Part shown: positions 338-49,135 of the stretch, piece by piece
Layout of the letters: each line of letters starts with the position of its first letter
Numbering within the stretch: position 1 is the stretch's first letter
Assembly (NCBI GenBank): GCA_964036295.1
Contig: OZ038470.1
Coordinates: 14,575,578-14,639,577, forward strand
Reading direction: 5' to 3'
DNA length: 64,000 nt
Source of the DNA: Plumapathes pennacea
Lineage: Eukaryota; Cnidaria; Anthozoa; Antipatharia; Myriopathidae
Position numbers and translations under genes: made by a program
The notes under the pieces: generated by a model
Databases searched by the model: none
What the model saw: the letters and a program-made list of their open reading frames with translations, nothing else
Told to the model about the DNA's origin: nothing

Positions 338-3300
338 CTACTTTGACCTCCCAGGGAGGTACTCTGCTCGGTAACGAAAAGACCTCCCTCCAGCTCCACT
401 GCTGGGGGTGGCAAACTCCCCCGGTAATGAGTTGGTATATAAATAAACATAAATCCAAAGTTGAAGTACTGAGGTAACGAACACTTCGTATCGCAGTGAC
501 GTATTGGAAACAATATTACTGGGAATCCAGAATCTGAATCTGTGGCCCTTGGAATCTTGAGCCAGTAACACATCGTCATCTCCGTCATTTGGGGTAAATT
601 TCCGACCGAAATGTCAGGGGAGTCCTGAGATGACACACCGCTAGGCACCTTTAAGTCAAATGATTCTTAAAGAAAGGAAATATTTTTAGAAACAATTTTT
701 TTTTTCGTTCCTTTACAGTTATAGCTAGTTTTCTGTCAGTTGTATACTGTATAATATTTAGATAGCGATTCAAATCTTGTGCGAAGTTCCTTTACGCCAC
801 CATTTTAAGTCTTGTGACCACACAAGGTCACCATTTTGAAGCTTGTGACGTTGTAAAGTATCCGAAGATGACCGAATACGGGTAACCGACTGTTTCATAC
901 TCGTTATATCTTTTGTAAATAAAGACTTTCTGCGTTCATTTGCTTACTTGCCCTGGACAAACCGTTTAAAAAAAGGTCAATGCTGGTCGACTTTGATAAT
1001 GGCGGAAAACCAAATGTAATTGTCCTATACTGTACGAAAATGTTTTCAGATTTGCTCTTTGGTGAACTTGAATGATGTTAATAGAAAGTAATGCTGGAAT
1101 TTTGTCGCACAAAGAAACAAATTAAATGAAATACTTTATGCCGGGTAATCCCTGGCGGTCACCCATCAAGCACTAACCCTGTCTGACCGGGCTTAACTTT
1201 CGAATTTGTCGCCGCTGGCTAAGCGTATGAACAATAGATAGCAATAAAGAGATAAGCAAGCATCTTAAAGTTTTTAAACAAATTGCTGAAACAAATTTTC
1301 TTGTATTTTACGGGGCCAACAATTATTCGCTGAAGTGGAGGTGAATAGCGGTGCCTGTTTACCGAGCCGCTTCGTCGGAGTAAATATCCACCGCTATTCT
1401 CCGACACTGAGGCGAAAACCTGTTTTAGTATGTAGCACACAAGTTTCATAGCGAGCTCCCAAATTTATGTTTTATTTTCTGGCAAAAATGGGCAAGAGTC
1501 GGGTTCGCGCGCGAGACCTTTTCACCGGAAGCCGCCAGGAGGTTAATAGTACTTGCTATTCCGAGATTAAGTAGCCATTCAGAACGCGCGAAAAGCATTA
1601 TTCACTTGTGTGGTATATACTAGTTTTTAATATTTCTGTTCAGTTTGAGTGCGTCTCTTTGACCGCTTGAAATGGACACGCGGAACCTAATCGGAACTTA
1701 CGCTTGCATGTTTTGTCTGCTCCGACGGGGATGTAGGTTTCAGGGCATGTTGACTTGCATGTGCGTGTGCCATCGTCTGAGACCACCAACGCAAAGCGGC
1801 ATCTATTGCAGTCCGTGGCTCTAGGATTTGCATCCGCTGTACATCCTAAAATAAAACGGAAACGCAAGAACGTAATTCTAGCGGCGTAAAGATTTGACAG
1901 GTGTGACAAAATGGGCGGGCTAAAATTAGAACCCGTCAAGTATCACCTTAATTTCGTCCTTTGCTCAATCAATAACTGCTCAATAACCTTCCAGCTCAGA
2001 GTTTACACTTGGGAAAGGTGAACGAGTTGAATCACAAAGTACCAAAATACCAATCCGAGTCGTGCGCAATAAAAGTTTTTACCACAACACACTAGTTTCT
2101 CGCTCTCTGATTGGTCGATTTACCGTGGTAAATAAGAGTCCAGACAACGATGCTGACGCCAGCTGACGCCAGCATGTCACGTTTTGCAGCGAAATACAAC
2201 GAAAGTTTCCTGTATATTTCTAAATGTTGTGGTAAAAAACAAATTTCCACTGGTTTGCCGTGGTGTGGACTCTTATTTACCACGATTTACGTCATCACAT
2301 GGTCAAAATTAGTTGCGGACTCATTCGGCGAAGCGCCTCGTGAGTCCACAACATTTTGACCATGTGATGACGTAAATCGTGGTAAATAAGAGTCCACACC
2401 ACGGCAAACCAGTGGAAATTTATTAAATTTGCTCAAATCTTTGGCTTATAACGGTCGAACTGTGCTTTTTGTTAAGGTTGTTGCTGTTACTTCAAGGTGT
2501 TGATACGTTCCAGAAGTTAATTTAAGTGACGCTTCCTAATCAATAATTGAAGGGCTATTGCTATTTTCTTATTTCTAGGAATTCTGTACCTGCCATGGGA
2601 TCACAAAGAAAGTGACACCTTTGTCTCTCTGCCATGCACAAATTGGAGAGCTCGTCTTTTACAGTTTCCCCTTTGCAAACCGTGTCGGTCGAGTTTCGTG
2701 GAACCAACTGAGCGTCCATAATCCGCACCACCTCTTCTCTGTTGGCAAAGGCGTAAAAGCGAACATATAAGTGGTCCTCTGTGTCCAAGTAGGTAAGTAA
2801 GATCTCGCCGTTTTCGGAGCTCCCCATGCTTTTTCCATATTCTATCAGCGTAGACTCCTCAGTCTCGTAAATGCAAACAAAGTAGGATTGGTGCAATGTT
2901 TTGTTTCCGATTGCCAAAGCGCTGATATCACTTGTTGACGACATCTTGTCGGTTCCCTAACAAGTCACGCAATGAAAAATACAGTTAGTTCTATATCAGG
3001 CGATATTAGGCATACTGTAGAACCCACTATCTCAAACTCTCAAGGGAAGCGAGAAATAGTTCGAGATAGCGGGGTTCTACCAAGGGAACTTTATACCAAG
3101 TTCATTTCCGAGGGAAATCGGATTCTGTTCGAGATAGCGGGGATTTTGAGATAACCGAGTTCAAGACAGCGAGGTTCTACTGTATTTCCATGCTAACAAT
3201 CCCGCAATAAAATAGGCATGTTTATTACGAGCTATTGCGCAACCCACATTCAAAACTGTAGCAGAAACCAATTCGTATAATCTTAGGGGCTCATCCAATA

Positions 3301-6300
3301 AACTTTATTTGCCACGCCCCAAACACAGAATTTGAGAAGATTAGCAATTGACAAACTGTCCACAGTTACGTCACTGACCTTGTTTATGGACACTTCTTCT
3401 TGACCAATATGAACATAATACCAGGAATCTCTTTGACTTGGTACTGTTGCGAAGACCACAAAAAAGTCTCCATCGGTCGATGCCGTGAAATGCAGACATT
3501 TTCCGCTCGTGTCGCGTGGGTCGAAGCGAAGCGAATTGGACCATTTAACGGGGTTACATATTTGGACAGTCTCCTGGTTGGTCCTCTTTGAAATGGTGTT
3601 ATTGGATGCCCAGTCTACATGTGCTAGAGTGTGCCCCTTCAGATTCTTACTAATAGTCGGATATGCTTTTTTGGATGCCTTGAAGTCACGTGGGTGGAGT
3701 GCCAGAGTTCCTTCTTTCTCGTTGTACGTCAGTATGAGACCCTTGATGGACATTTTTCGCTTGAGAGGATTAGTACTTAATCCTGTGTTGTAGCCGCTGT
3801 ATAGGTGGAAATCCCCATGTTCGTCACTTGTAAACCATGTATTATCAACGTACTGCACAGTACTAGTCATGTTCCAGTGAATAAGCGTTGGGCCATGCAC
3901 AAAGCCTTTTAGATCCTCAGGCATGTCAAACAAAACTTTGACAGGCGTTTTCTCTTTGGTTATTTGTTCCCATGTAGGCACGAGTCTGTCGCTAAAGATG
4001 TCTATCTCGGGCGTAAAGTCATCGTTGACGGTCACCTCACAAGCTGGGACATCAATTTCACTGACAGATATTGGACCCTGGTGAAGACCAGCCATGCAAA
4101 GGTAAAATTGAATCCGTAATTAGGTTAGTTTATCAATCAATCGAAGATAAACAAGTATGAAGCCTTAACTAACCGACTAACTATAGACTAATAGATTAGA
4201 AATGCGGCCAAATAAGAGTTATCTAATTCATGTCTAAATTACGTATTTATATATGACGAAAGTCTAAAACTACGTATTTATATACAGTGAATGTCTTATC
4301 TAAAACTACACAATTATATGAAAAGATTGGTATCTACATTCCAAAAAATATATAATACGGCTTAACTTTGCAACAAAATGTAGTTTTCTCACCTCTTCCA
4401 TGTAAACTTCGATTGCGCGCTTCAAGCTGCTTCTGCGGCGGTTGATTGCGATTTCTAATGACTGTCGACTGTTAAACGAGCAGTACACTTTTTTTGGAGG
4501 ATCCTCCGCGGTATTCATGTAGTAATAATACTCGATACCGTCCTTGACTTCGATTTCAAGAGTAGAGGCAAGTCCGTCACATCCCCAGTCAACAGGCTCA
4601 TCAGGAAACAGATCGTCCGCCCTGAAATTTACCAGGTCCGTGATGGACCCCATCAGGAAGCGAAAGGCTTTGGGGAAGCGAGGAATGCTCCTGAGCCAAT
4701 TTTTGAACTCGTTTTTAAAGGTCGTGGAGTACATATCGGACAAAATGGACGCGATTTCTTGGCTTCCACCGTGCACCGTTATTGAAGTAGAAGTTGTCTT
4801 GTTTTGACTTCTGCTAGAATCTCCACCTTCCGTGCTAGAATACGCTCCAACGCTCGCAAACAGTCCCTTGTATTCCGCTTCCATTTGCACACTAAATGCC
4901 TTCTTATCCGCCACATCTTCTCCGTCCATTGTTTTTCGTATCTCCAATCTGCCGCCAAATTCTGCAGACTTGATATAGTGGGTGCCAAACCGTTGAATAA
5001 AGTTTTCTGATTAACAGAAAAAAGTGAATTGAAGTGAAAATAGAGTTTGACACTTTTTTCCTGGAAATGTGAGTTACACAAGTTTCCCTTTCTTTTCTTT
5101 GTTTTGTATTACTATTATTATTACAAATTATTGTTTCTTTTTTAATGCCTCAGTTTGTGACTACAATCAGTGACAAAAGTCTTGGGACACTCGCACAGTT
5201 TCAGTAATTTCTCTACTGTTTCAGTTGAAAGACAACCCCCCTCCCCCCTTTCAATGTTGAAGTGGCCTGAACTTGTTTTCCCAAACACACGCAACATTGT
5301 ACAGAGGGGAGGTAGGAGAAAAATGGTTTCGTGCCTTTCAGTACGCTTAGTCAATGACTTGTGTCTGAGATACATCAATTTTTGAAAGTGTCCCAAGAAC
5401 TTTTGTCACTGATTGTAGCTTCGATCGTTTTGGTGAAAAACCCGATGTTGATCTGTTGGGAATGCAACTTTGAAACCCTTTACTTTCCTGTTTTCTTCTC
5501 TTGCCTGTTCACCTGCTTCCTTCATTTTGTGTTTTCTACTTACGGTACTTAATTGGCGATCCAGGCGTGTAGTACGACGTCGGCAGGTTCATAAACTCCT
5601 TCAGAAACAGTGGACTTAGATCTTGTGGTCGGACCTCATCCATATAGATCTCGTATCTAAGTGAGAGAAATAACGGAGACTTAAGCTCACCGGGTTTGAC
5701 TATCAGGCTAAACGGGGTTTTCAAGATCTCAGCTATAAGCCCGTTTTTGAAGGACTCAGAAAATATTTGCACTTTCCGTCCGGCCAGTGATTAATTACTA
5801 GGTTAATAGGAAACATACCTGTAGATGTCGACATCGAGAACGGACATGAATGTCTGTCGATTGCTCAGTTGTGATTCGCCGTAAGCACCCTTAACTCCGG
5901 CGTAAAACCCAAAATAACTCCCTGACATTCCTGCTTCTGTTTGAAGAAATTTCTGGTATTCCTGGCGACTCTCGAATGTCGTCATTGAAGCTATCGTATC
6001 GTAGATTCCGTGTACACTCATGGTGTCTGGGACGCTAAATCTGTCGTACCTAATTGATAGAGCAAAAACAAAAATAGAAAATAGAAAATTGAGCAAATAG
6101 ATAATAGTAAGATCAGTTTTGTATTCTAACCATAATCCTGTGCTGTTTTCTTGGGTCCATTTATATCATTGTTTAGAACTTTGCGCATTTGTTATTTCCA
6201 TGAATTCAGTGCAAAAGTCAAGTAAATCATACAGCATACTCACATTTGTAAGTTGGAACATTGCTTCTGGACAATGCTCATCTTCCTCGATTCGGCACTA

Positions 6301-9095
6301 TACGATCCTCGCCCATCAAATCCAACACCAATGAAAGCCGCTCCCTCAATCATGTTCTGAATAGACAAATATTTGGGTCAATGGTCGATTTCTATTACGA
6401 GATCTGACCCCGTTGACTTGCGGGAAATCAAAGTAAGATAAAGCTCTGGCCCCGGTTTTTCGAAAGTCGATTAAGCTAATCCAGGTTTAACGAAATTCTT
6501 TCTCTCGACCTCTCTCCCAATAAACTGCAGGGTTTTGTTCGAAGATTGATTAGAAAGCTTGTTCCAGCTTAAAACGTTATCAAGATAGTCGTTGTGGACG
6601 AAACTTTCACGTTTTCAGGCTAAAAAATGACAAGAAAGTTTAGACCTAATCCAGGATTAGCCTAATCGTGCTTTGAAAAACCGGGCCCTGTGTACTAGTT
6701 AGTAGTAGTAATCTTTATCCAGTTAATTAAAATACCTAATATTTGTACTAATATACGAAATTATAAGTCTGGTGAAAGACAAGCCAGTGACATTGCACGT
6801 TCTGACTTAATACCATGCCACTGATTGCTATGAACGTAATCAAGACCTACGCGTTAAACTGTCGAGGAATATGGGGCGTAGCAAAGTATCAAAGACTTAC
6901 ACTGCAAATAGACATAGCACTTTTATATTGAAAACAAGGGTCGTTAGGCTGGTAGTTGGTCTCCAAGCATCCACTCATCAGCACGTTACCAACTCCCCCC
7001 TCGTAGGTATACGGAGTTTCAGCAGCTTCCAGTGGGGCCACTGTAGTTCCGGTAACTTCAGCATTAACGTGATATCCGGCTGGGGCAAACATATCATCTC
7101 TGACCCATCCTTTGTCAGGTGTAATGTCAATTTGTACCTGTATTAAGCCCAGCAATTGCAAAAACAATGACGAATTATCCTGTCAGTTTCACCTTTAAGA
7201 TGTTTAACCGCATCTCAAAAAAAACAACTAAAGATTATTTATCTATCCATCTATCTAAAAGACCTTACATACCGCTTGTTACCCTCAGACCAGCTGGGGT
7301 TCTTAACAAACTTACGTTCAGTTTATGATATTTGGTTTCTGCATATCAAGTCTTCTCAGTTAGCGCGGCAGTGCTAAACACATTGATTTTTTACCTTGTA
7401 ATTTTATTACAAGGACAGCGGTTTTTCTCAATATTTTTAAACATGAACCCATACCACGAGCACTAGTCCTGGCGATGGATTAACCACTAATAATCGAACA
7501 CAACGTTTACCGTTATTTTATTTTATTAGCGTTTATGCAATTGGTCCACAGAGCTTTTCTGAATTGTGGCATACCAATTACCAAACTCACCCCTTTATCC
7601 AGGAACTCTGCAGCTTTGTTTTGGGCTTCGTCAATGATTTCCAACTGTTTGTCTACCAATTGGCCACCAACTTCGATAATTTTGTTGGTCGCAGCTTCCT
7701 GGACAGCTGCACTTGACATTAGTCCATCAACAGCGTCGGATTCACTGTCTGCTTCACTTTCTTCGTTTGTTTCTCCTGTACTGTCTGGTTCATCTGGTGC
7801 ATCGGCTGTTGCAGGAGTGTTTGCTGCTTCAGTGGTTGCTGGCGATAGAGCAGGCGTGTTTGCTGCTTCAGCGGCTGCCGGCGGTTGAACAGGCGCGTTT
7901 GCTGCTCCAGCGGTTTTAGGTGCTCGAACAGGCGCATCTGCTGCTGGAGCTGGTGGGCTTGCTGGTTTAGACAGAGTTTTTGCTGGTTTGTTTACTTCGG
8001 CCTCTTTGAATATCCCTGTTTGACGTCAGAAACACTATTAGTGGGGGAGGAAGTTTGGCCGGGTGGTTGGGCGCCGGACTTGAAATCCAGTTGGGATTCT
8101 TAACAAATTTACGTTCACTTTACGATGTTTGGTTTCTGACTTTCGCAGAAGTCCGCAAAATGGGACAAAATTCAGAGAGTTCCTAGAATTAACCTTTACT
8201 GTAAAAGACAATGAAAATGCACCCCAAGTAATCATTCAAACCTACTTAACGCTAATAGGCAATGAAAGGACGCCTCAAGGAATCATTCATACGTCTTGGC
8301 TATAGCGGTTTACCTACCAAAATCTACTATCCTTGATTTGGGGTTTCGTTGTGCATGTGTGGTTCTCCTTGCCGGGTTTGAATTATTTCGCATGCCAGCT
8401 CCTTTGCTAAGTCCACCTGTATGGGAGTCAGCAATAGCTGAAAAAAAAAAAAGAAAAGAAAAAAAATATATATGGGGTTAGGGCTACATATATCTCTAAA
8501 TCTAGGAGCGGAGAAGCCATGAAGTAGTTATGGCCTGGTTGTCAGATCAGAAAGTAAATGGATGAACTGAAAGTCCAACGTAAAAGAAATTCGGATATAA
8601 GGAGCAGGATTACCGCTAGCCTACCGGTAACCAGTGGGAACAGATAAATATAAAATAGATTGTGGATTTACGTTAGTGGAAACTATTAGATTCAGAGGTT
8701 TAATCGCACGATGCAATTAACTTACATCGTGTGATTTGTTTCCTTTTATTGAAACAAGGGCTCCAAGTTGTAATAGACACCCTCTTAAGGTGCGAATGGA
8801 CATTTCTTAACCCCTTCGCTCCCAAGCTCAAAAGACAGGTTCTCCCAACCGTTTAAGAAGAAAATGTGTGAGTGATGAAATGAGAAATGATAGTTTAGTC
8901 AGCTTCCATCTGCACAATGTATCAAGCCACAAACTCTCCATACTGTAAAGCATTGTACAAGAGTTGCGTGAGTAGAGTAATCAATCATTAATCGTGTACT
9001 CCGTCAGGTTCTGTTATTGTTTGTCAGAGATCACCTGTTTGAATGAACAATGCGGTCACCAAAACGAGCCACAGACTTGACAGCCAAACTTCCAT
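338..9095 (-). CDS. Gene A: secreted MACPF-FAMeT-like-pentraxin protein (3' end outside window)
   Basis: Exons read on the minus strand: 9095-9035, 8015-7591, 7137-6901, 6356-6244, 6049-5819, 5656-5544, 5006-4393, 4077-3379, 2956-2590, 1845-1702, 665-338. The final exon lies beyond base 1, so about 1110 codons are visible. All junctions have AG/GT and phases 1,0,0,2,2,1,0,0,1,1,2, identical to gene B. Exon 1 encodes a signal peptide (starts MEVWLSSLWL, hydrophobic core, ends QTG). Exon 2 carries a Pro/Ala/Thr-rich acidic linker absent from gene B. Exons 3-7 form a MACPF domain; the signature Y-x6-FGTHY spans about residues 393-404 and is followed by FGG. Exons 8-9 are beta-rich with a probable farnesoic-acid-methyltransferase-like (FAMeT) domain, exon 10 has six cysteines, and exon 11 begins a pentraxin domain (MCYWLKI). 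MACPF proteins insert into membranes as oligomeric pores; this one should be secreted. The role as immune effector or venom/defence protein is inferred. Confidence 0.85.
1138..1203 (-). pseudogene. 5S rRNA-like fragment (5S pseudogene or 5S-derived SINE)
   Basis: On the minus strand this reads AAGTTAAGC, then GGTTAGTGCTTG, ATGGGTGACCGCC and GGGATTACCCGG. These are the same ordered blocks as the 3' half of animal 5S rRNA (loop A/box C region through the terminal stem). The 5' half is only vaguely recognisable and no T-run terminator follows, so this is not an intact gene. It sits in gene A's intron between exons 10 and 11. Confidence 0.55.
2074..2426. mobile_element. Foldback MITE, copy 1 (353 bp)
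   Basis: Contains a nearly perfect inverted repeat of 68 bp (2241-2308 against 2354-2421) around a GC-rich loop with GGCGAAGCGCC. It lies in gene A's intron between exons 9 and 10. It is nearly identical to 17760-18102 apart from a 10-bp internal tandem duplication (GCTGACGCCA). The flanks differ completely, which supports mobility. No coding capacity. Confidence 0.8.
3015..3182. mobile_element. Tigger/pogo-like MITE
   Basis: Ends are CTGTAGAACCC at left and GAGGTTCTACTG at right, flanked by TA. Internal repeats of the GAGATAGCGGGG type occur on both sides. Related copies: 16012-16186 and a partial at about 54546-54628. The family (non-autonomous Tc1/mariner, pogo-Tigger group) is inferred from the terminal sequence style and TA flanks. 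Confidence 0.55.
5161..5418. mobile_element. Tc1/mariner-like MITE in gene A intron
   Basis: Terminal inverted repeats of about 27 bp, CTACAATCAGTGACAAAAGT at left and its complement at the right end. The inner CTTGGGACAC resembles Tc1-type ends. It lies between exons 6 and 7 of gene A. About 260 bp long with no transposase. Confidence 0.65.
6448..6688. mobile_element. MITE with GGGCCCGGTTTTTC ends
   Basis: Left end GGCCCCGGTTTTTCGAAAG and right end CTTTGAAAAACCGGGCCC are inverted repeats, each followed internally by a TAATCC/GGATTA motif. Located in gene A's intron between exons 3 and 4. A differently filled element with similar GGGCCC-type ends is at 16722-16872. Confidence 0.6.
7591..8015 (-). 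CDS. Exon 2 of gene A with Pro/Ala/Thr-rich linker
   Basis: This 425-nt exon is 255 nt longer than its gene B counterpart (14311-14480). The shared part is the C-terminal helix-rich segment (QLEIIDEAQNKAAEFLDKG against QLKIIDEAQDKAESFLDTG). The extra part, about 85 codons between roughly 8000 and 7725, is low complexity: repeated AANAP, AANTPA and PATTEAA motifs followed by an acidic Ser/Glu/Asp run before DAVDGL. It looks like an O-glycosylatable spacer grown from an in-frame minisatellite. Confidence 0.7.
8808..8960. mobile_element. TTAACCC-type MITE, degenerate copy
   Basis: Starts TTAACCCCTTCGCTCCCAAG and shares the following order of short motifs with the better copy at 57570-57771. The right terminus is not clear. 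It lies in the first intron of gene A. Confidence 0.5.
9035..9095 (-). CDS. Exon 1 of gene A: signal peptide
   Basis: A 61-nt exon too short for ORF finding. ATG lies at 9095-9093; the translation is a charged start, a hydrophobic run (LWLVLVTALF) and IQTG, ending in phase 1 at a GT donor (9034-9033). An acceptor-like CCTACAG sits one base before the ATG, so transcription probably starts farther upstream with an untranslated exon. It was chosen because it supplies the signal peptide and the phase needed by exon 2 at 8015, exactly as exon 1 of gene B does. Confidence 0.75.
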
Positions 9096-13703: not shown

Positions 13704-13767
13704 ATGGCGGGTGCCAGGGCAACCCCAGTGTTTGTGGTTCTGGTGATTATATTGTCGATGCTTAACG
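13704..13767 (+). CDS. Exon 1 of gene B: signal peptide
   Basis: A 64-nt exon beginning at ATG 13704. It encodes a classical signal peptide (VFVVLVIILSML core) and ends in phase 1 before GTACGT. The polypyrimidine-rich stretch and TTTTTAG immediately upstream (to 13688) mark an acceptor, so a leader exon should splice in here. The likely leader ends near 13398 at a GTAAGG donor. Confidence 0.75.
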
Positions 13768-16700
13768 GTACGTGAATCAAATAGGGAAAGCCTCGCCTCT
13801 ATGAACAACGAGTTTGCATTTTCGTTTCATGAACGGCACGTGCCTCTACAGCTTCAATACACTCGCGCATTTTAATACAAAATCGTTTCATTCCGGCTCG
13901 ACGCTTCAACCCTTTCACTCCCAATAGTGATCCACTTCGATGTTCTCCTTCAGTTTTCCACCAGAAACATATGATACAGTAGAGAGAACTTGACTTTTGG
14001 TACCTTGCTAAAGTGAAAGCTGATTAAAATATAAAAACCCACTACATTACTTATACATTTTACTCTTAAGAGTTTGGGAAAATCTGTATTTTGAGCTTGG
14101 GAGTAAAAATAGGTTGACAAGTGTTTTGAGTTTCTCGGGATTTGCCGCAAAATGCATGGTGTACGCCATGCATATTTAATTTTGTTTAGAAATTTGGACT
14201 GGTTTTCACTCAAAGTTAATGTTTTGTAAGGCATCTTACTTTCTCGGTGTCTTTTGCCTTTTCCTTCTTTCTCTTAACTCGTTTTCATACGGACATTTTG
14301 TCCCTTGCAGGTATTGTGGAGCTGAAGGCTTCTAAGATCATCGACGGACTTCTCAGTAGCGCCTCAATAAAGGAAGCTGCAATCGAAAAGGGCATTGAAG
14401 TCGCCGGCAAGATGATCGATAAACAGCTAAAAATTATTGATGAGGCCCAGGATAAAGCCGAATCCTTTCTGGATACGGGAGTACGATTTTTTTTCTTCTT
14501 TGTCCTCCTGACCCCTCTGAAAACTGTATTTATTTCTACTGCAACGAAACATTTACTCGCATGCAAAGTTTCGATGCCCAGGTTAAGTTCTGATAAGGTA
14601 TCAAAGGGGATCCTGGACTGTCGTCTCTTGTAAATTGAGCACCACATGCTGTTTACAGACCCAAGATGGCGGCACGCGGAAAATGCAAATGAATGTTGAA
14701 TCTGGGTCTAGAAATGGTACTAAGCCAATGAACAATTAATATGAATCTGAAACAGCAATAGATTTATGAAAACCGTTGACTTTGCCTCGCCGTTTCGACT
14801 CGTTCACATAGCCCCTTATGTTAAGCCAAAGATAGTGTCCCACTGAAGTCAATTTCGTGCTCCTGCTGACTCTGCGTTGCTTCGTCTTTTTGTTTTCGTC
14901 CGTTCTGACTAAATCTGCCAACATCGTCACTCACAGACTGACGATGCGCATACATTAACTTTGATCTCTCTTGTTGCCTTGTTGCAGGTCAAAATTGATA
15001 TCGTTCCACAAAAAGGGTGGGCAAGAGACGATATGTTTGTCCCCCCTGGATACCATATTGGTGCGCAATTTACCGGGGGTAGCAGTGCTCCACCGGAAAA
15101 CGGCCAGACATCTTATACATATGAAGGAGGCATTGGAAACACTTTGATGAATGGGTGTTATGGATCAAGCTATTCAGAGGAGGATCCTTGCCATGGAATT
15201 AAACGTTTTGCGACTATATGCACGGTGCGTAATGTGATATATTTCTCTACGGTATAGCATTCAATATAAAGAGGTTATTACACGGGAAGGAGTGCAATAC
15301 GGCGGAGTATTTTTACGAGTCGGTTTTATTTTTTCGAGCCTGCTTCAGGCGAGAAAAAATAAAACTGATTCGTAAAAATACAGCCGTATTGCACGACTTT
15401 TCGTGTAATAAATTGTTTATTATACGATAAACGAAGCAGGGCAAACGTTCTCGCCGCGCGCAAAATGGAACAATAAAATGACGCGTTCGTAAGCTTTGCT
15501 TGCGAAAATTGATCACGTAAGCTAATAAACCAGTTGATCTGGTTCCTGACGAGTGCAATACGCTCCCATCTTTGCACTCGTTTTGGCCCGTATTTGCACT
15601 CGAAAATGTGAAGTTGTGTAATAAGGTCTAATAGTTTTGCACCATGCCAACTGTGACTGAAAGTGATATAATTAGGGTGCGTCCTTTTGGGACTATTCCG
15701 TTTATTCCTATTCCGGAATTGACGGTAATCGTGTTCTTTTGGGACCTATTCTGATTCCGGAATGAACGGAATACTATTCCGTCAATTCTGCTCCCGATAG
15801 CAGAATAGACGGCATAGCAGTTTGTTCGGAATGGACAGAATAGCCGGTAATCGCGTTCTTTTGGTATTTTTGGCCGTATTCTGTCACGTCAGCAATTCTG
15901 TTTTCGGAATAGCGCAAAGTCTGTTCTTTTGGAAACTTGTATTCTGTGTATTCTGTTATTCCTATTCCGGAATAGGAATAGACGGAGTATTCTCAAAAGA
16001 ATGCACCCTTACAGTCGAACCCCGCTATTTCGAAGTCGCACGGAACATGAAAAAAAGTTCGAAATAGCGGGGTTTCGAAATAACCGATAGTAAATGACTG
16101 AAAAAATAAATCTACGGGGATTCGGCTTGACTTCGAAATAACGGGGATTTCGAATTATCCGAGTTCGAAATAGCGAGGTTCGACTGATAGAACTTACTAG
16201 TAATGATAGCAATGAGATGCACACAAAGCATAGTATCAGAGGTATAGGGAAATGTAACTCCGTTGTCTTTTCGAAATTATCCTTGTAGTTTTCTGCGTTA
16301 CTCCAGATTTCTGTTTTGTCCCTATTTGCTCAGTGAGAACTCAGAGTAAAGAAAGAGCCACGAGGATTTTCTGTCGGATTTTTTACTTGCAGTTGCTGCC
16401 CGATGCGTCACGTATGAACATTTATAAGTCCGAACGTTTTGTATAGCTGAGCCTTGGGATACATCTTAACTAAATGACACTGTTTTTTGAGCACTAAATA
16501 ACTGTTTCTTCACAGAACATGATTGACGGAGCGGCTTTTATCGGTGTTGGATTTGACGGACGAGGGTCGTACAGTGCTGAATCCAGGAAAATGAGCATTG
16601 TACAAAGGCAGTGCAGCAAGGGCCAGACGTGAGTACGCTTTAGGATTTGTTTTTAGCCGAGACACTATTAAAAGTTTTGTTTTAAGGAATACCGTGGGCA

Positions 16701-19700
16701 AAAATAAAAAAACTAACACTTGGGCCCAGTTGTTTAACGAGTGGATAGCGCTGTTCACCGGATAAATCCTTATCCAGTTGATAAAATAAGCTTTTAATAA
16801 TTGTTAACACTTATCCACTGGATAGTGTTAATCCCGTGAATAGCAATATCCACTTTTTGAACAACCGGGCCCTGCTCGCAGGATTGGGACTAACATGTGC
16901 TATTCTTACTATTTAGATACGATCGATTTACTGTTCCAGACACCATGAATGTGCATGGCATCTTCGACACTATAGCTTCAATGACAACATTCGAGAGTCG
17001 CCAGGAATACCAGCAATTTCTTCAGACAGAAGCAGGAGTGTCAGGGAGTTATTTTGGGTTTTACGGCGGAGTTAAGGGTGCTTACGGCGAATCGCAACTG
17101 AGCAATCGACAGACGTACATGTCTGTTCTGGATGTCGACGTTTACAGGTATTTCTACAGCTGAGTAGGGCGGAGAAGTTAGTCCAGGCAAATTTTATTCT
17201 TCCTACTACTATTACTACTACAAAAAAAAAAAAAATGTAATAGGTGAAATTTATGTTCATTACGTAGATAGAGATGGCCTAACTGCAGTCAATCCTGACA
17301 CTACTGCTCGAACTCTTTGACAACTATTCATAAAGAATTACGAGATTCCTTTTGTTAAAATGACGACACTCAATTCTCACAAGAATGAACATTGGAGTAA
17401 ACTTACCTTTGTTTAAAATATATTCGAACTGAGCCTCGCCTTGAAACAGAAGCAACAGGCATCAGAAATAGACTACCGTATTGTCTACTTTCCCTACCTT
17501 TGTTTCCGGATAAGTTTTCTGGAGTAAACTGCTGAAAGATTGAAAGAAAAAAGAAGGGATTGTAGTGGAGGCAGGTTGCAATCGTTGATCTCTTTGTATT
17601 TGCTCTCAGGTATGAAATCTTTATGGATGAAGTCCGACCGGAGGACCTAAGTCTTTCGTTTCTAAAGGAGTTTATGAATTTGCCAACGTCTTATTTCACT
17701 CCAGGATCTCCTATTAAGTACCGTAAGTAAAAAATATGTAATAATTATCAAACAAAAATAGTTTTTACCACAACACACTAGTTTCTCGCTCTCTGATTGG
17801 TCGATTTACCGTGGTAAATAAGAGTCCAGACAACGATGCTGACGCCAGCATGTCACGTTTTGCAGCGAAATACAACGAAAGTTTCCTGTATATTTCTAAA
17901 TGTTGTGGTAAAAAACAAATTTCCACTGGTTTGCCGTGGTGTGGACTCTTATTTACCACGATTTACGTCATCACATGGTCAAAATTAGTTGCGGACTCAA
18001 TCGGCGAAGCGCCTCGTGAGTCCACAACATTTTGACCATGTGATGACGTAAATCGTGGTAAATGAGAGTCCACACCACGGCAAACCAGTGGAAATTTATT
18101 AAGTTGTAAGAAGGTCAATGTGATCTTAGCAGTTTTTAAGGGACCAAAAAAAGTTTAGAAAATCAGTGTGATGCACGTACTGTGAATTGGCTTTCTTTCT
18201 TTTTTATTGTTTGTTGTGTGTTGAAGGGAAAACAAAAGTATGTTCGTGTTTTCACATAAGTAAGACATGTCGTTTATACGAAATACGACACAAATCAAGT
18301 CTTTCTCAACCAATTCACTGTCCCAGTACATTGCAAAACAAAGAAAAGAACAGGCACCACTTGTTTTTCTGACAAATCGACAAAAATGTCTTAATTTTCT
18401 ACCTTATTATTACTTATATTATTATTGTTTATATTTATCAGAAAACTTTATTCAACGGTTTGGCACCCACTACATCAAGTCTGCAGAGTTTGGCGGCAGA
18501 TTGGAAATACGAAAAACAATGGACGGAGAAGATGTGGCGGATAAGAAGGCATTCAGTGTGGAAATGGAAGCGGAATACAAAGGACTTTTTGCAAGTGCTG
18601 GAGCGTATTCGAAAACGGAGGGTGGAAGTTCTGGCAGGAATCAAACAAAATCAACCTCCACCTCTATAACAGTGAACGGCGGAAGCCAAGAAATTGCCTC
18701 CATTTTGGCTGATGCGTACTCGCCGACGTTCAAGGACGAGTTCAAGAACTGGCTCAAGAGTATTCCTCACTACCCAAAAGCTTTCCGCTTCCTCATGGGA
18801 CCCATAACAGACCTGGTCAACTTCAGGGCGGACGATCTGTTTCCGGGCGAACCTCCCCAATGGGCGTGTGCTGGAATGGCGTCTTCCTTACAAACCGAGG
18901 TCACACAAGATGGACGCGAGCGGTACTATTACATCAACGCCACAGATCCTAACAACCCCAACAGAGTGTACTGCAAGTTTAACAGTCGCAAGTCATTAGA
19001 AGACGCGATTAGTAGAAGAAGAAGTGGCTTGAAACGCGCCATTGACGTCTACCTTGAAGAGGTCGGTGTTTTACTTTAAGTGTTTCCTGAACCTGGAAAA
19101 CTCAAGCACATAAAATAAGGTGCTAGCCCGGGTTAGATCACCGATCCTGGTCAACCCGTCTTCAATCAATCTTTATGTAAACGCTTACAGAAGATTGACT
19201 GAAGACGGGTTGACCCGGGACGGTCACTTGACCCGAGCTGGCAACCCAACCCGGTGTCGTGTAAGCTTGTTCTTAGTCCTCCGTTTTCCCACTAGGGCCC
19301 TATTTCTACCAGTGACTTCGTGCTAGAAGGCTGCTCACCTCAAAGAGATATCGTGCTTCAAGACGATGTTCTAGAAGAGAATGAAGCGCCCTCTTGGAGT
19401 TTCATGACTGAGAAAAAACTGCCATTCAACGTTGTGTTCGACATGCAGGAAGACTTGCTCGGAGCAAGTCACATTCCAAAAGATATGTCCCGCACTGTTC
19501 GCTTTGCACACAACAAGTGGTTTATCAGTGACGAAAACGGGGGGTTCCGACTCTACAATAGCTTTGCCAACGGATACAGTGGCAACCCTCAAAATCGAAA
19601 AGTCTCTATTAATGGGCTGGTACTGACATATTGGGATAAAGGGCATCTTGTACTCGATCAGTATGATTACAATGTATCAAAAAGTGCATACCCAAACCTC

Positions 19701-22700
19701 AACCCATATCTGATAGGGCTGCCCCTTGCCCGGGTGGGGTGGGCCGTGTCGGAGAAGCAAATTTCCAAAAGACAATCTCCTTCCGTTGCTGTCATGCCAT
19801 GCAGTGGGCTTTGGTCAAACGCGCTTCGCGTCGACCCGACTGTTACGCGCGGCATCTGTCTCCACTTTACTGCATCAACCAGTGGCGATTTGTATGTGGT
19901 TTTTGCAACGATTCCGGGCAGAAGAGAAACCTGGTACAGTGTACGCATTGGCACAGAGGAAGTTTCTATTATCAAGGTGGGTTTTTGATTATTCGAGTAT
20001 ACACGCACAACTGCGTTTACATGGTCATGGAACAAAGATTATGACAAAGTCTAAATCAGATTATTGTTCAGATTATGTTATGCTGACGGTTGGAAAATGG
20101 AGAGGTTTATGAACTTTCTTCTCATTCATACAAACTGCGACCGCAAGGACCAGCCGATACTTTGCTCATTGTCTGTAGTATTTGTAAATTCACGGAGTCT
20201 AGTTAAATTAGTCATGGAAACATTACAATTGGGTAGGCAAATACAAAAGATGGCCACCATAATTTCTCTCCCATTTCGGAACCTCTTAATGTTTCATATG
20301 TTGCTAACGTGTTTTATTTTTATTTTTTTATTTTATTTTATTTTTTTTGCTAGAATTTCTTTTCTTAATCCGTCTGTCCTATTTAAAGTTTTACGAACAT
20401 ACTTCTCCATCTTCATTCATTATCATTTGAAAGGGCGAAGAAGAAGTGGCAACTACCGACGAAACGGCAGCCCTGGCTATGGGAGACAAGCTCCTACACC
20501 AGTCTTACTTTGTTTGTGTCGCTGAGACACGCATAAGCACCGCTCTAGAATATGGCAAGAGTTCGGGCAGTGAAGATGCCGGTGAAATTTACTTAAGTCA
20601 CGTCGACACTGACGATCCACTAAATGTTCGCTTTTACGGTTTTGGCAACAGAGATGACGATGTCCGAGTGATGGATGCCCATATAGTGTCGAGAAACTTG
20701 ACAAATGCCATGTGCAGAGGAGATACCTACCGGGACGACGTCACAAGGATGTGTCTTCAGAGGTGCCATTCATTGTGCGATCCTTTGGCAGGTATTTCAT
20801 TTTAGATATTGAAGGTCTGATCAATTAGATAACTGCGTTCGGTCTCTTACTCGTCATCAGCTTTTTCAAAACAAAGCCAGGCTGCGTGTATAAATTTCTT
20901 GGTGGCCCCTTAATAGGGGTAAAAAACAATAAAACCTTCATCGCGTAGGCCAGAAGGTGGCCGCGACCGCTTAATAGATGTGGCCGCGTAATAGGGGTTT
21001 TGTTTACAGTATTATACTGACATTAGTTTCAGGACTGATAACTGGCCGCTTAATATGGGTTCGACTGTGGTAGTATGTTGGCCGTTTTGCTTGGATTACG
21101 CGTGGCCGCACAGCGATTGCCTCAGCTTTCATTCGCGCAGATAGCTTCATGTTAGCCTTGTGTTTTTAGGTTGCAAAGACGCCGACCCCGACAACGACCC
21201 CGAACCTACGAAGTGCAACGCATGTCGATATGCCGAAGATATTTCCAGAGACCCATCCGAATGTGTGCGGGAATGTCCGGAAAACACTTCCCCCATTGCA
21301 GACAAGACCTGCAAAGGTGACCAAGACAGGCCACGTTTTTAAAACATCCAGGATTCACCAGTGAATATCGTATTTCTCGTAAAGGATCTTTTCCCTCTCT
21401 TTCTTGCTATTGTTTCTTGTTTCTACCCTTCTTTTCGTTTTGTCTCTTGTGCATCTTTGTGCCTTGAACTACAACTATCTTTCCTATTGTTCTAAGTTAT
21501 TTCGTCTTCTTCATCTTCTTCTTTTTCCCGGTGCTTATCATTTTTTCCTTGTGTTTCCTTGGTCGCAAAAACTTAACGAGTAACTCTTTCTGTTCTGTCT
21601 AAAAAGAGACATTTAGCTTGAAGGTCACGGAAGGCTCCACGGACTTTAAAGTCGAGAACCTCCCTCATATGAGAACAATGAGTGTTTGCTTGTGGATCCA
21701 GTTGGCTGTTGCTACAACGGATTTTAAACAAGAAAGGGGAAGTTCTTTCACGTGGCCGATGAGTTTCATGGCATTTCAACACAAGGATGCGCACAATTCC
21801 TATGGCTACTACAACATGAGGTTCATGTTCGAGTACTTCCCAAGTGGACTTCAAGATAACGGCGAAGAAGATGCTTCACACGAACTAAAAGGGTACTTTC
21901 GGATCGCTCAACACAGCCAAACTTTTGGTTTTACACACAGGTAAGACTGGAACAGTTCTAGTAAGATTATGGGTCTTGCCGTTATGGATTTGCCTGCAGT
22001 TTGGGACGTTGAGAAACGTGTACAATATTATTAAAGTGCGACAAGGGTAATTCCATGGCAACATGACAACTGAGCAATAAAGATTACCAAGAAAGTTATT
22101 CACCATTTTGTCATACCAAAAAAAAAAGAAAAGTTAGAAATAATAGAAGCTGCGATACTAAACCGAAATTACCTAAAAACTGACTTGCCCGATAAGTTAA
22201 AAGTAGAAAATCTAACTATTATTTAGCAAAAAGTCTATTAATTAAAGAATAAAACAACCTTTTTATAAACTGCTGAACAGATACAGAGTCACGAACTAAA
22301 GATGGTAAATTGAGGGTCTGCACGGCGGCCATGTTGGATGGCAGGAACAAATATTTTTCCATAACAATAGCATTTCTTTCCCAGAGGAATTAAATTCTAT
22401 TGTTCCTGCCATCCAACATGGCCGCCGTGCAAACCCTCTACTGTTCCAGCCCTTTGAATAGAAAGGCAGTTCTCTGTTGACCCCATTCGATGGAAGTCTA
22501 AACCTTGCAACTTATTTACACAGCTGAGGCAAGCTCCTCCAGCAACATATTTCTCTAAAGCCTTTCTCTACTGTTTTTTCAGGCAATATAATTTTAACGC
22601 TCTAGGAGTAGTCGATGGTGGTTGGCATCACACATGTGTGACCTGGTCCGGCCTTAATGGAGGTGTGCATGTGTATTTTGATGGGAATGACCTGCCTTTG

Positions 22701-23117
22701 TTGGAACCCGACTCCCTCGCAGCTCAGGGGTATCTAAGGGGAGGGGGAATCATAAATGCAGGTAGCATTTATGACGATTATGTTCCTGATTATTACAACA
22801 TAACTGAGTTAAACGTGTGGGATCATGTATTGCTGCCTTCGGAGATTTCTGAATACAAACAAGGATGCTTCAAAGCCACGGGAAACGTCAGAGAATGGAA
22901 TGATTTCAAGCCAACCATTGAAGCACACTCGGCAAACTTTCTTCTGCCGTCGCGTTGTCCAGTAAGCGTGGGTGCCAATCCGACAGAAGATGGAGACGGG
23001 GATGAAGAGGTCACAAGAAGGGATAACAATTTACCTCGCCGAAGAAACGGAACACGCGCACACCAACCAAGCAAAGTTGCCCAAAATGATGCCAAGCAAG
23101 CGAGCAAAACCATGTAG
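13704..23117 (+). CDS. Gene B: secreted MACPF-FAMeT-like-pentraxin protein, complete
   Basis: Twelve exons: 13704-13767, 14311-14480, 14988-15224, 16516-16628, 16917-17147, 17610-17722, 18442-19061, 19296-19976, 20434-20791, 21170-21316, 21607-21940, 22583-23117. The coding length of 3603 nt stays in frame to a TAG, giving about 1200 aa. Residues 1-22 are a signal peptide (MAGARATPVFVVLVI...). Residues 22-78 form an amphipathic helix-rich segment. Residues about 80-516 are MACPF, with the exact signature Y-x6-FGTHY at 309-320 and GG at 327-328. Residues 517-688 are unassigned; about 689-830 resemble the FAMeT domain (Methyltransf_FA). Residues 863-911 hold six cysteines. About 912-1145 is a pentraxin domain: paired cysteines in SVCLWIQ and HHTCVTWSG, then LNVWDHVLLPSEI and GNVREW. 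A basic tail of about 55 residues follows. An acceptor AG just upstream of the ATG (13687-13688) implies a 5' UTR intron. Pathway and target are unknown. Confidence 0.87.
13908..14109. mobile_element. TTAACCC-type MITE in gene B intron 1
   Basis: Left end CCCTTTCACTCCCAATAG and right end GAGCTTGGGAGTAAAA belong to the same family as 57570-57771. It lies between exons 1 and 2 of gene B. Confidence 0.6.
15270..15622 (-). mobile_element. MITE-like repeat ending GTGTAATAA, copy 2
   Basis: Reverse-orientation copy of 9174-9526, here in gene B's intron between exons 3 and 4. With copy 1 it forms a pair of about 350-bp inverted repeats separated by 5.7 kb that brackets the intergenic region and gene B's first three exons. 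Confidence 0.7.
15674..16009. mobile_element. hAT-like MITE (GGGTGCGTYCTTTTGGG ends)
   Basis: Left end AGGGTGCGTCCTTTTGGG and right end TCAAAAGAATGCACCCT are inverted repeats. The inside is built from many copies of ATTCCG/CGGAAT. Located in gene B's intron between exons 3 and 4. The hAT assignment is inferred from the end sequence only. Confidence 0.5.
16012..16186. mobile_element. Tigger/pogo-like MITE
   Basis: Ends CAGTCGAACCCCGCTATTTC and GCGAGGTTCGACTG are inverted repeats; internal sequence is repeated TTCGAAATA/GGGG motifs. It abuts the hAT-like MITE at 15674-16009. Confidence 0.6.
16722..16872. mobile_element. MITE with GGGCCC ends in gene B intron 4
   Basis: Left GGGCCCAGTTGTTTAACGAG and right TTGAACAACCGGGCCC form an inverted repeat; the interior repeats TATCCACTGGATA-type motifs. 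Lies between exons 4 and 5 of gene B. Confidence 0.6.
17760..18102. mobile_element. Foldback MITE, copy 2 (343 bp)
   Basis: Same element and same orientation as 2074-2426, here in gene B's intron between exons 6 and 7. Because this intron does not correspond to the one holding copy 1, the two insertions are independent of the gene duplication. A degenerate trace of the loop region (GGCGAAGCGCCTCGTG) also occurs near 12473-12488. Confidence 0.8.
19119..19268. mobile_element. Foldback MITE (GTAAACGCTTACAG type)
   Basis: Contains GTAAACGCTTACAGA with flanking TTGACTGAAGACGGGTTGACCC and its near complement. Related to the element at about 57787-57985. It lies in gene B's intron between exons 7 and 8. 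Confidence 0.6.
22312..22439. mobile_element. Short foldback element with near-perfect arms
   Basis: The block CACGGCGGCCATGTTGGATG followed by GCAGGAACAA is repeated as its exact complement about 70 bp later; GAGGGT/ACCCTC end the arms. It is in the last intron of gene B. Its perfect arms suggest recent arrival or gene conversion between arms. Confidence 0.65.
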
Positions 23118-24986: not shown

Positions 24987-25135
24987 GTTTTTTATACTGA
25001 AACTAGTAAGAAAGTGTTGACTGTGGAGCTATGCCATTACGGAATATTGTAAAACCAAAAAACATTTAGTACCCACAAACATTACCAACTACCCGTACAC
25101 GTTTATCATTGAAATTTTATTCCTCTCACAGTGCA

Positions 25136-26754
25136 ATGTTCCTTGCACAACCAGCTCTAGTTTTTCTTCTTTTGCTGATCACGTGTCCCAAACAAGTAAA
25201 ACTACAAGCTGCCAACATGTGCAGGCGCATCAACGAGGGACAACTGCGCATGCGTGTTCTCACTGGTCACGTGATCTCGACCCAGGCTGCCAACAGTTTT
25301 GATGTGTGTGCTTCACTTTGTGCTGCCAACTCTTCATGCTACAGCGTTAACTACTACGATAGAAAGAGGAAATGCGAGCTGAACGACAAGACGTCCTTCA
25401 ACAATCCAGAACACATGATCACGGACTTGGAAGGCAGTTATCTGGACATTCATCGTCCATACAACGACTGCAGTGATTTGTTCTGTAATCTGGAACAAGT
25501 GTGTAAGATGGACAGGGTTGACCGCGTTATTTGCAAAGGTATATGTTTACAATTAAATCTGCTTTTAGTTACGTGTGTGATAAAGAGTTTGATGCATGTA
25601 TTTTTGCGTAAACACTTTTTTGTTGGTCAGCTTTGTGTTTCATCATTTTATTTCCTTTCTGTTGCCTGTTCCAGCCTGTAACTCGCCCCTTGGCATGGAA
25701 AGCGGCCAAATCAAAGATTCTCAGATAACTGCATCGTCTAGGCGCAGTGAAGATTATATTCACTTGCCCTCCTCCGCCCGACTCAACAATCCGAATGGGC
25801 ACTGGAGACCACTAAACAGTAAGGCCGGTGAATGGCTACAGATTGATTTCCTTCAGAGTACAGTAGTGACACGAGTCGCCACACAGGGGAGGACCACAGG
25901 ACAGTATTACGGACAGAAACATTGGGTAACCTCATACAAAATATCGTCCAGTAAGAACGCTGTTTCATGGGAAGTCTTTGCAGAGAATGGACAAGAAAAG
26001 GTAAAAACATATTTTGCTGAACTATAAAGACTCGATTTAAAAAGCGACGCAAGTGAAAAGAAAAAGAATGATCTTGATCCTTGTCCAGCCTTGCGCTCCC
26101 AACAACAGTTCTTTACGGGCCAAAGTCCACCTCCATCCGCCATTTTCAGAATCCACGAAATTGCAAGCAACAATGGCAATCCTTTTCATCCAACTCGTTT
26201 GGGAAGGTTTGTTTCCTTTGGCCTAAGAGTGCTTTTATCTATTTCGTCGTCAATTTGTGTCTTTTTTCGTCGTGTTGGAACCAAAATCTAATTTTGTGTT
26301 TCAAAACATTTCTAGATATAGTAAACAAAAGCACTGTATCAGTGGCTGAGTAGGCCATGTTCAGGTGAATATTTCTTGAAATATCCCATTAAACATTTCA
26401 GTGCCACAAAGGGGGGTTAACCACCACCTTAAAGCGAGTTACCCTATTACATGAAATCTTCACGACATTTTAATTTCGCCAGTTTAAAAATGTCAAACCG
26501 AATCGAAATTAAAGTGACCCAGAATATAATAATTTTCGAATTTCTCGAAAGTAACATGTCGCAAAAAATTTCATGTAATAAGTTACTTCATTATTTCTAA
26601 ATTGCAGATCTTTGTTGGAAACACTGACTTAACCACAGTTGTGTCCCATGTCCTCGCGCCAAAGATCCACCAGGCGCGTTATATCAAGTTTGTGCTGATG
26701 ACGTGGCACAACGTCCCAAACATAAGAGTAGAAGTGTACGGGTGTGAGGCATAA
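25136..26754 (+). CDS. Secreted PAN/apple + F5/8-type-C (discoidin) protein, copy 1
   Basis: Exons 25136-25538, 25675-26000, 26608-26754 (876 nt, 291 aa, phases 1 and 0). Residues 1-27 are a signal peptide ([17 protein letters not shown]). Residues about 30-115 form a PAN/apple domain with the cysteine pattern [15 protein letters not shown]...CELN; a short Cys-rich link ([12 protein letters not shown]) follows. From about residue 135 to the end is an F5/8-type-C domain opening [11 protein letters not shown] and closing EVYGCEA, whose two cysteines pair in this family. Such domains bind carbohydrates or phospholipids outside the cell; the ligand here is unknown. A TCTCACAG acceptor precedes the ATG, implying a leader exon. 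Compared with copies 2 and 3, about 21 nt of pyrimidine-rich sequence is missing before that acceptor. AATAAA at 27101. Confidence 0.88.
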
Positions 26755-42720: not shown

Positions 42721-42900
42721 AGCCTTTGATAAACAGTGGTCACACTGCATCGATCAGGAAGGCAAACTGAAGTATCTACCTAAACGGTAACTAAAGGCTA
42801 AATTCAAAAAGACCGAGAAAAAAACAGCAGCCTTTCTAGCTAATGCTTGTAAAGAAAATTTAATTCCTTTTGGAATTCTTTCTATTCCTCTCACAGTGCA

Positions 42901-44444
42901 ATGTTCCTTGCACAACCATCTCTCGTTTGTCTTCTTTTGCTGATCACGTGTCCCAAACAAGTAAAACTACAAACTGCCAACATGTGCGCGCGCATCAACG
43001 AGGGACAACTGCGCATGCGTGTTCTCACTGGTCACGTGATCTCGACCCACGCTGTTAACGGTTTTGATGTGTGTGCTTCACTTTGTGCCGCCAACTCTGT
43101 ATGCTACAGCGTTAACTACTACGATAGAAAGAGGAAATGCGAGCTAAACGACAAGACGTCCTTCAACAATCCGGAACATATGATCACGGACTTGGAAGGC
43201 AGTTATCTGGACATTCATCGTCCATACAACGACTGCAGTGATTTGTTCTGTAATCTGGAACAAGTGTGTAAGATGGACAGAGTTGACCGCGTTTACTGTA
43301 AAGGTACATGTTTACAGTTTATTTTTGGTAATGTGTTCTTTTGTGGGACTTAAATAGATACTATGACGTATGTGGTCACAACACGTTCTAGACGTCACTT
43401 CCGGTGGTAAAGCGTTCTAAAACGGACAAATGTCTTCGACCTGACAATCCTAGACATAATGAAAAATATATACTTCCTCTAATGTTACCATTTTGCAGCC
43501 TGTAATTCGCCCCTTGGCATGGAAAGTGGCAAAATCAAAGATTCTCAGATAACTGCATCGTCTGTCAACAGTGAAAGATATGTTCACCAGGCTTCCTCCG
43601 CCCGACTCAACAATCAGTTAGGGCACTGGAACCCGATGAAGCTTAACGTTAATGAATGGCTGCAGATTGACTTCATCCAGGAAGTAGCGGTGACTAAAGT
43701 TGCCACACAGGGGAGGAGCCTTGGCGAGTACAATAATGAACAACATTGGGTGACGTCATACAAGCTCTCGTTCAGTAAGAACGCCATTTTGTGGGAATTC
43801 GTTACAGAGAAGGCACAAGAAAAGGTACTGAAGCCTTAGCAATTAACCTTAAAGGCCTTTTCGATCAAAGTCTATTGCGCGCCAAAACAAGCTATTGGCA
43901 GAAAAAATTAAAAAATAAAAAAATTCAGGGGCAATACATTCAGAAGGTTATTTTGGGTAAGTTTAGACGAACTCTTTAATTAGATTGGGAGCAACAATAC
44001 TGTGGAATATAAGCAACTTTCTAGCGCTATTCGGCAACTTTTTCGATTATTTTAGCAACTTGTGAGGAACATTTTAGCAATTTATGGCTAAGACTAGTCA
44101 TATGACCAGACCCTGCAAAGAGCAGTATATTAATATGTGTTTTCTTGTTGGGAATAAAACCAGTCAACGCAATTTACTCATTTCCAGATCTAAATAAGAA
44201 CATCGGATTGGCTGAGAGGGGTCCTTTAACGACCTTGATAACACGATAAGCGCGATATCAGCACACAACGCGTCTTACTGCAGATTTATAATTTCAGATT
44301 TTCACTGGAAATACAGACAAAGGCACAGTTGTGTCCCATACCCTCGCGCCAAAGATCCGCCAGGCGCGTTTTGTGAGGTTCGTGCCGATGACGTGGCACA
44401 GGAGGATCAACATGAGAGTAGAAGTGTACGGTTGCGAGGAATAA
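42901..44444 (+). CDS. Secreted PAN/apple + F5/8-type-C (discoidin) protein, copy 3
   Basis: Exons 42901-43303, 43499-43824, 44298-44444, with the same lengths and phases as copies 1 and 2 (291 aa). The PAN half is almost unchanged, while the discoidin half has diverged: [14 protein letters not shown] in the first loop, [13 protein letters not shown] in the second, and [14 protein letters not shown] at the C-terminus. Introns are unrelated in sequence to those of copies 1 and 2, so this is the older paralogue. The acceptor TTCTATTCCTCTCACAG precedes the ATG. A possible AATAAA is at 44748. The gene converges with SLC33A1. Confidence 0.87.

Positions 44445-45093: not shown

Positions 45094-49135
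<4,042 letters not shown>

Follow-up and report, generated by a model that had tools for sequence, protein, structure and literature searches.

A MACPF protein with a C-terminal pentraxin-fold head in Plumapathes pennacea and the exchange of heads among its predicted relatives

Gene structure at the locus

We analysed a 64-kb stretch of the Plumapathes pennacea genome (contig OZ038470.1; hereafter, the window), which carries two head-to-head paralogous genes, A and B, considered here as candidates for pore-forming effectors. In gene B, a MACPF domain is joined in one predicted polypeptide to a C-terminal pentraxin-fold domain (the head); everything upstream of the head is referred to as the chassis. 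The gene B model, built from splice sites in the window, runs on the plus strand from an ATG at 13704 to a stop codon ending at 23117, exactly as given in the preliminary description of this DNA. It is spliced from 12 exons; every intron is of the GT-AG type, and the frame and phases are continuous, yielding an unbroken frame of 1200 amino acids (aa).

Exon 1 (13704..13767) contains the start codon and a hydrophobic leader, judged by eye to be a signal peptide, and ends with a GT donor. Exon 2 (14311..14480) encodes the N-terminal helical segment of the chassis, whose counterpart in the structural model of a homolog, P0002, is a long helix at residues 82-118, predicted with low confidence. A conserved segment preceding the MACPF domain follows in exon 3 (14988..15224, aa 79-157). 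The MACPF fold begins in exon 4 (16516..16628, aa 158-195) and continues through exons 5 (16917..17147, aa 195-272) and 6 (17610..17722, aa 272-310) to exon 7 (18442..19061, aa 310-516), which holds most of the signature and the remainder of the domain. Exons 8 (19296..19976, aa 517-743) and 9 (20434..20791, aa 744-863) are predicted to encode the two parts of a CBM66-like, lectin-type beta-sandwich, an assignment based on the homolog model. Exon 10 (21170..21316, aa 863-912), with phase 1 at both ends, encodes a cysteine-rich linker and is the last exon common to most members with other heads. The head is entered via a phase-1 intron; exon 11 (21607..21940, aa 912-1023) encodes its first half, including SVCLWIQ, and exon 12 (22583..23117) the second half (HHTCVTWSG, NVWDHVL, GNVREW), a basic C-terminal tail and the stop codon.

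Domains of the gene B protein

Pfam MACPF (PF01823) matches aa 259-437 of gene B (E 9.6e-19; 68.8 bits against a cut-off of 21.5). The usual signature of the family is Y/W-G-T/S-H-F/Y followed by GG. The Y-x6-FGTHY...FGG motif noticed earlier is indeed present in the spliced protein, with Y supplied by exon 6 and FGTHY by exon 7, and we accept it as a MACPF signature with F at the position where Y or W is usual. When the whole protein was compared with solved structures, it matched MACPF proteins of bacteria (Mpf2Ba1, E 6e-9), neuronal pentraxin-2 (1.1e-6) and complement C9 (2e-4); C9, C8 alpha and C7 are among its sequence matches, and C8 alpha appears in the fold match of the homolog model, which has the MACPF fold. 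Between the MACPF domain and the head, at residues 560-887, the P0002 model contains a CBM66-like beta-sandwich that has no Pfam match in gene B; on the strength of this model, the chassis is predicted to include a second lectin-type domain.

About 600 residues downstream of the MACPF domain, a distance that had been estimated correctly, profile searches do find a pentraxin fold. Pfam Pentaxin (PF00354) matches aa 1036-1132 (E 1.8e-5) with a marginal score of 25.0 bits, exactly the cut-off of 25, and Laminin_G_3 matches below its own cut-off. The tail alone matches the solved structures of neuronal pentraxin-2 (E 1.4e-8) and neuronal pentraxin-1 (1.4e-7), consistent with the pentraxin beta-sandwich. 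The Pentaxin scores of homologs range widely: 44.8 bits in P0002 and 363 bits across three copies in P0013, with no match in P0008, P0018 and P0020.

Classical pentraxins bind calcium through a QExD loop, and their signature is H-x-C-x-[ST]-W-x-[ST]. Among 23 aligned heads, the loop is absent from gene B and from all directly attached heads (0 of 20), while it is present in all three aligned heads of P0013 and P0015; the gene B sequence HTCVTWSG departs from the signature in its final G. The candidate status of a classical calcium-dependent pentraxin was hence rejected because the loop is lacking: the pentraxin fold proposed for the C-terminal recognition domain stands, but its classical nature does not.

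The paralogous gene A

A tblastn search of the window with gene B yielded gene A on the minus strand (matches from 7740 to 337). Its exons 2-11 span 338..8015 on that strand: exons 2-6 at 8015-7591, 7137-6901, 6356-6244, 6049-5819 and 5656-5544, and exons 7-11 at 5006-4393, 4077-3379, 2956-2590, 1845-1702 and 665-338. Exon 12 lies 53-560 bases beyond the window, and exon 1 is unplaced. Exons 2-12 are open, their intron phases are those of gene B, and the arrangement is repeated exon by exon. Exon 2 of gene A (7591-8015) encodes a long Pro/Ala-rich stretch which gene B does not have. A 90%-identical repeat occupies non-corresponding introns of gene B (17914-18100) and gene A (2238-2424); its halves are inverted, as judged by eye, and it looks like a small transposon.

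The identity between the two proteins decreases along the chain, from 84% in the MACPF part (aa 158-516) to 50% in the middle (aa 517-863) and 38% in the head (aa 912-1160). The proportion of differing non-synonymous sites (pN) rises accordingly, from 0.092 to 0.315 and 0.429, and that of synonymous sites (pS) is 0.52, 0.82 and 0.81, respectively. In none of the three parts does pN reach pS, and synonymous sites are saturated outside the MACPF exons. The low pS over aa 158-516, compared to 0.75-0.90 in the exons outside it, suggests gene conversion between A and B, a suggestion and no more, since the introns of the two genes hardly align past the exon edges. Concerted-like evolution of MACPF genes in anthozoans is described in the relevant part of PMC6802032.

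Copies of the chassis in the genome

The 290-Mb assembly contains at least 39 MACPF matches. Chassis exon 7 is present in 11 copies, two in the window, five on C5 and four on C10, and exons 8 and 9 are matched in all of them. Exon 7 identity across the 11 copies is 49-97%, and nine other MACPF matches of the genome are 24-30% identical to the MACPF segment of gene B. Downstream of the chassis we observed pentraxin-fold modules in gene A and all five C5 copies. Two D8C modules are followed by one pentraxin in C10-b and C10-c and by two pentraxins in C10-a; in C10-d there are two D8C modules and no pentraxin within the approximately 12 kb read. With gene B included, 10 of the 11 copies have a pentraxin-fold module downstream. 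The QExD loop shows the same division as among homologs, being absent from the direct heads of this genome (0 of 7) and present in the pentraxin modules that come after D8C in the C10 copies (4 of 4).

In all ten exons inspected (from four copies), the best acceptor, chosen by eye, is in phase 1, with a weaker acceptor of a different phase also listed in six; one of the ten is a pentraxin exon, and exon 11 of genes A and B is additional to them. As read from these splice sites, modules in the inspected exons are joined at phase-1 introns.

Beside the MACPF pair, three PAN-domain frames are found on the plus strand (25070-26024, 34578-35604 and 42853-43350); at the first two, an adjacent, overlapping frame that follows encodes an F5/8C domain, so that they look like tandem genes, and for the third the PAN frame alone was checked. 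Further along are exons of an acetyl-CoA transporter (Pfam Acatn; 47914-49147, minus strand) and exons with RCC1 repeats (53858-55042, plus strand).

The chassis family in other animals

A search of about 5.8 billion proteins returned 34 homologs of gene B. According to precomputed Pfam annotation, 15 of them combine MACPF with Pentaxin or Laminin_G_3, and nine, from Oculina, Actinia, Nematostella and Stylophora, unite PF01823 with PF00354 in a single predicted protein; the combination expected in several anthozoans is hence seen in four genera. A profile search that scored only the 7992 candidates sharing most words gave 62 matches at E <= 1e-20, with more hemichordate and amphioxus members and one annelid added. 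The chassis, about 880 aa long, has members from sponge to amphioxus, including hemichordate and annelid. P0029 of Stylophora pistillata is named 'C-reactive protein 1.1' in its source despite carrying MACPF, a misleading database name that hides the family.

Two relatives are uninterrupted on short contigs: P0003 (1160 aa; MACPF and Laminin_G_3) on a contig of 3922 nt, and P0030 (831 aa, beginning inside MACPF; Pentaxin) on one of 2827 nt. These contigs are probably complementary DNA, as they are too short for introns of the kind seen in gene B.

A mis-joining of two adjacent genes, with exons 1-10 and exons 11-12 coming from different transcripts, could be argued from the Pentaxin score of gene B, which taken by itself is just at the cut-off, and from the gene B model being drawn from genomic DNA. 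Against it, the frame and phases run through gene B, gene A repeats the whole order on the opposite strand, the module is downstream in five of five C5 copies, and P0003 and P0030 are uninterrupted. We consider such an error extremely improbable, and a gene-fusion artefact was rejected on the last three grounds. Replication of the arrangement in gene A, in 10 of 11 genome copies and in 9 of 34 homologs makes chance very unlikely as well. Thus the proposal of one polypeptide joining MACPF to a C-terminal pentraxin-fold domain is borne out by the frame, the paralog, the C5 copies and the homologs; that exons 3-9 and exons 11-12 share one transcript appears to hold for the relatives P0003 and P0030 and is predicted for gene B itself.

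Alignments of gene B to members with a different head or none stop at aa 850-915, close to the junction of exons 10 and 11 (aa 912, phase 1), and those to the truncated models P0021 and P0022 stop at 743-748. The other heads on the same chassis are fibrinogen, C-type lectin, F5/8C, D8C, chitin-binding and calcium-loop pentraxin, the last with an intact loop in Oculina (P0013, P0015). Pfam scans of 15 homologs for head families assigned fibrinogen-C to P0005 and the sponge protein P0033, EGF with C-type lectin to P0016 (Montipora capricornis), two F5/8C domains to P0019 and amphioxus P0032, two D8C domains to P0024, and pentraxin to P0001, P0002, P0013 (three copies and EGF) and P0023; no head family exceeded the Pfam cut-off in P0008, P0012, P0018, P0020 and P0027. 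In P0027 (Nematostella), a head without Pfam match occupies approximately residues 797-967 of the same chassis. Hence MACPF plus pentraxin does not define the family: its chassis is shared by many heads, of which the pentraxin-fold type is one.

The taxonomic range bears on the possibility that gene B encodes a protein of nematocyst or gland-cell venom, whose head would bind prey or competitor cells and whose MACPF domain would lyse them. Members with this chassis are known from sponge, hemichordate, amphioxus and annelid, all of which have no nematocysts, and the head types are common in innate immunity. Anthozoan nematocyst venom does include MACPF proteins, according to titles cited in PMC1896004 and PMC6626399 (in the latter, a cnidarian study, MACPF occurs in reference titles alone, as far as the text was covered), and a partnership of MACPF and lectin is a toxin in apple snail eggs, as described in part of PMC7082926. 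On the opposite side, an immune cell type in the Stylophora single-cell data of PMC8162421 (in the section on that cell type) is marked by secreted Perforin/MACPF proteins, which may or may not belong to the gene B family. On balance, we regard a venom function as unlikely compared to that of a defensive effector.

Head exchange on the chassis tree

A maximum-likelihood chassis tree was built for 34 rows (31 anthozoan and three hemichordate): gene A, gene B and 32 proteins selected from the 66 that were fetched. Not included were 34 proteins, namely the amphioxus, annelid and sponge rows, P0059-P0065, the truncated P0021, P0022 and P0046, and P0034, which has no MACPF. Nine head labels, with 'none' and 'unknown' counted, require at least 11 changes on this tree, the minimum possible being 8; shuffled labels give 12.8 changes on average and as few as 11 in 2 of 200 shuffles. 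For the 21 directly attached pentraxin-fold heads, some of which are labelled by tail alignment and not by a Pfam match, the well-supported branches force at least four changes. A single clade for all such heads was rejected by the approximately unbiased (AU) test (p 2.5e-62, two trees compared). A larger tree of 76 rows (51 labelled, 17 changes) was set aside, as C10-a had been labelled D8C only, while it really has D8C and two pentraxin modules.

The tree alone is unable to separate gain of a head from its loss. The distribution nevertheless suggests that the directly attached pentraxin head is an old one that was replaced several times, as such heads are found on both sides of the anthozoan tree, including octocoral P0025 (labelled by tail alignment). 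Heads also differ at short distances: Oculina P0001 (pentraxin) and P0005 (fibrinogen), on contigs of different size, are 94.6% identical over 821 chassis columns, and the hemichordate proteins P0038 (chitin-binding) and P0039 (C-type lectin) are close in the chassis with different heads. Ten pairs with direct heads were chosen, some of which overlap in a member, and in all ten MACPF is better conserved than the head; the single pair whose heads have the calcium loop shows the reverse. As far as the compared sequences go, conservation covers the chassis up to and including the cysteine-rich linker. The head is the fastest-changing part between paralogs, and its type changes from one close relative to another.

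This pattern may be set against a role in extracellular adhesion or development, in which a MACPF domain that forms no pore would be accompanied by lectin-type domains binding matrix or glycans. Non-lytic MACPF proteins exist, and the calcium loop has been lost in the head, both in favour of such a role; matrix proteins such as polydom contain pentraxin, F5/8C and PAN modules too, according to the portion of PMC12549020 dealing with it. However, MACPF is the most conserved part between A and B, and repeated change of recognition modules would fit targeting better than a fixed structural role. An adhesive or developmental protein thus seems rather improbable to us.

Proposed function

We favour, with a probability of about 0.6, the reading of gene B as encoding an anthozoan effector, secreted and pre-targeted, that forms pores. 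We infer secretion, target binding, a ligand and a defensive or immune role for its protein, as well as ring assembly and pore formation. The protein would be secreted in soluble form; its head, perhaps with the CBM66-like domain, would bind a glycan or glycolipid on the surface of a target, microbial or other; binding would concentrate the protein, so that the MACPF domains could form a ring and insert a pore of the beta-barrel type, a C3-type cascade being unnecessary. Given the conserved chassis and differing heads, a genome would carry the same attack machine in several copies that differ in their heads.

More tentatively, with confidence falling somewhat short of even, we propose a family of single-chain 'guided perforins', ancient in animals, in which a conserved MACPF and CBM66-like chassis has received at least seven kinds of head via phase-1 exon shuffling. 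Such a family would provide a germline panel of pre-targeted pore formers, free of a C3 cascade, in species without adaptive immunity; specificity would evolve by head exchange with the attack part constant, perhaps via gene conversion between paralogs.

Several points weigh against this interpretation. Some MACPF proteins are non-lytic, and a scan of beta-strand amphipathicity gave no clear sign of the expected membrane-inserting segments or hairpins. With the calcium loop gone, ligand binding by the gene B head is putative. The three-dimensional model is that of the homolog and not of gene B, with a mean predicted local distance difference test score (pLDDT) of 70 and a predicted template modelling score (pTM) of 0.46. 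The fast evolution of the head could reflect relaxed constraint and not selection, as pN/pS is 0.45-0.63 with synonymous sites saturated. Head labels are clustered on the tree; exchange, judged from these sequences, is repeated but not free. Finally, the homologs are predicted gene models, and single cases may be mis-joined, although the pattern rests on more than one.

Comparison with known systems

No description of a MACPF-pentraxin fusion was found in the open-access literature searched, part-read, which is weak evidence of novelty, most subscription papers lying outside. A related combination is on record: predicted MAC/Perforin proteins with C-type lectin in Montipora capitata and Pocillopora damicornis, mentioned once in the available part of PMC8260672. 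Set against gene B by description, they likewise have recognition and MACPF in one predicted protein, and perhaps constitute the C-type-lectin-headed branch of its family (compare P0016); neither a pentraxin-fold head nor the chassis nor an exchange of heads is mentioned there. In the cnidarian study PMC3204972, the MACPF apextrin and pentraxin are separate transcripts in the portion concerned.

Most cnidarian MAC/PF proteins were sorted into MPEG, TX-60A and apextrin types in a 2007 survey (PMC1896004, in its part on cnidarians), and these are cnidarian MACPF proteins like gene B, a likeness by description and not by sequence. MPEG/perforin-2 has a P2 domain and a transmembrane anchor after MACPF, according to the section of PMC7424014 on its layout. 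In Perivitellin-2 (PV2) of Pomacea, MACPF is combined with a delivering lectin, as here, but PV2 is an egg toxin of two polypeptides (PV2-31, a tachylectin, and PV2-67, the MACPF) with another lectin type (PMC7082926, same part), whereas the gene B family has a single chain and heads that vary between relatives. From neuronal pentraxins and pentraxins like C-reactive protein (CRP) and serum amyloid P (SAP), the gene B head differs in having no QExD loop and in being attached to a MACPF chassis.

With terminal complement C6-C9, gene B shares MACPF and, presumably, membrane attack. In those proteins TSP1, LDLa and EGF modules surround MACPF in the order TSP1-LDLa-MACPF-EGF (PMC11312191, in its account of the layout). 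For TSP1, LDLa and EGF alike, Pfam gave no match to gene B with E values as high as 1 allowed, in a search whose filters drop most weak matches; the label of a complement-like module is therefore not supported by domain layout, and gene B, with recognition in the same chain, implies no trigger like C5b. Vertebrates divide recognition (pentraxins, ficolins, collectins) and membrane attack (C6-C9) between separate proteins that a cascade connects, whereas gene B would unite a recognition and an attack part in one chain, in which the recognition end varies from one close relative to another. Should the proposed function be true, the family offers a directly testable model of how innate killing gets re-aimed in evolution, and bears on how corals and anemones may distinguish microbes and symbionts.

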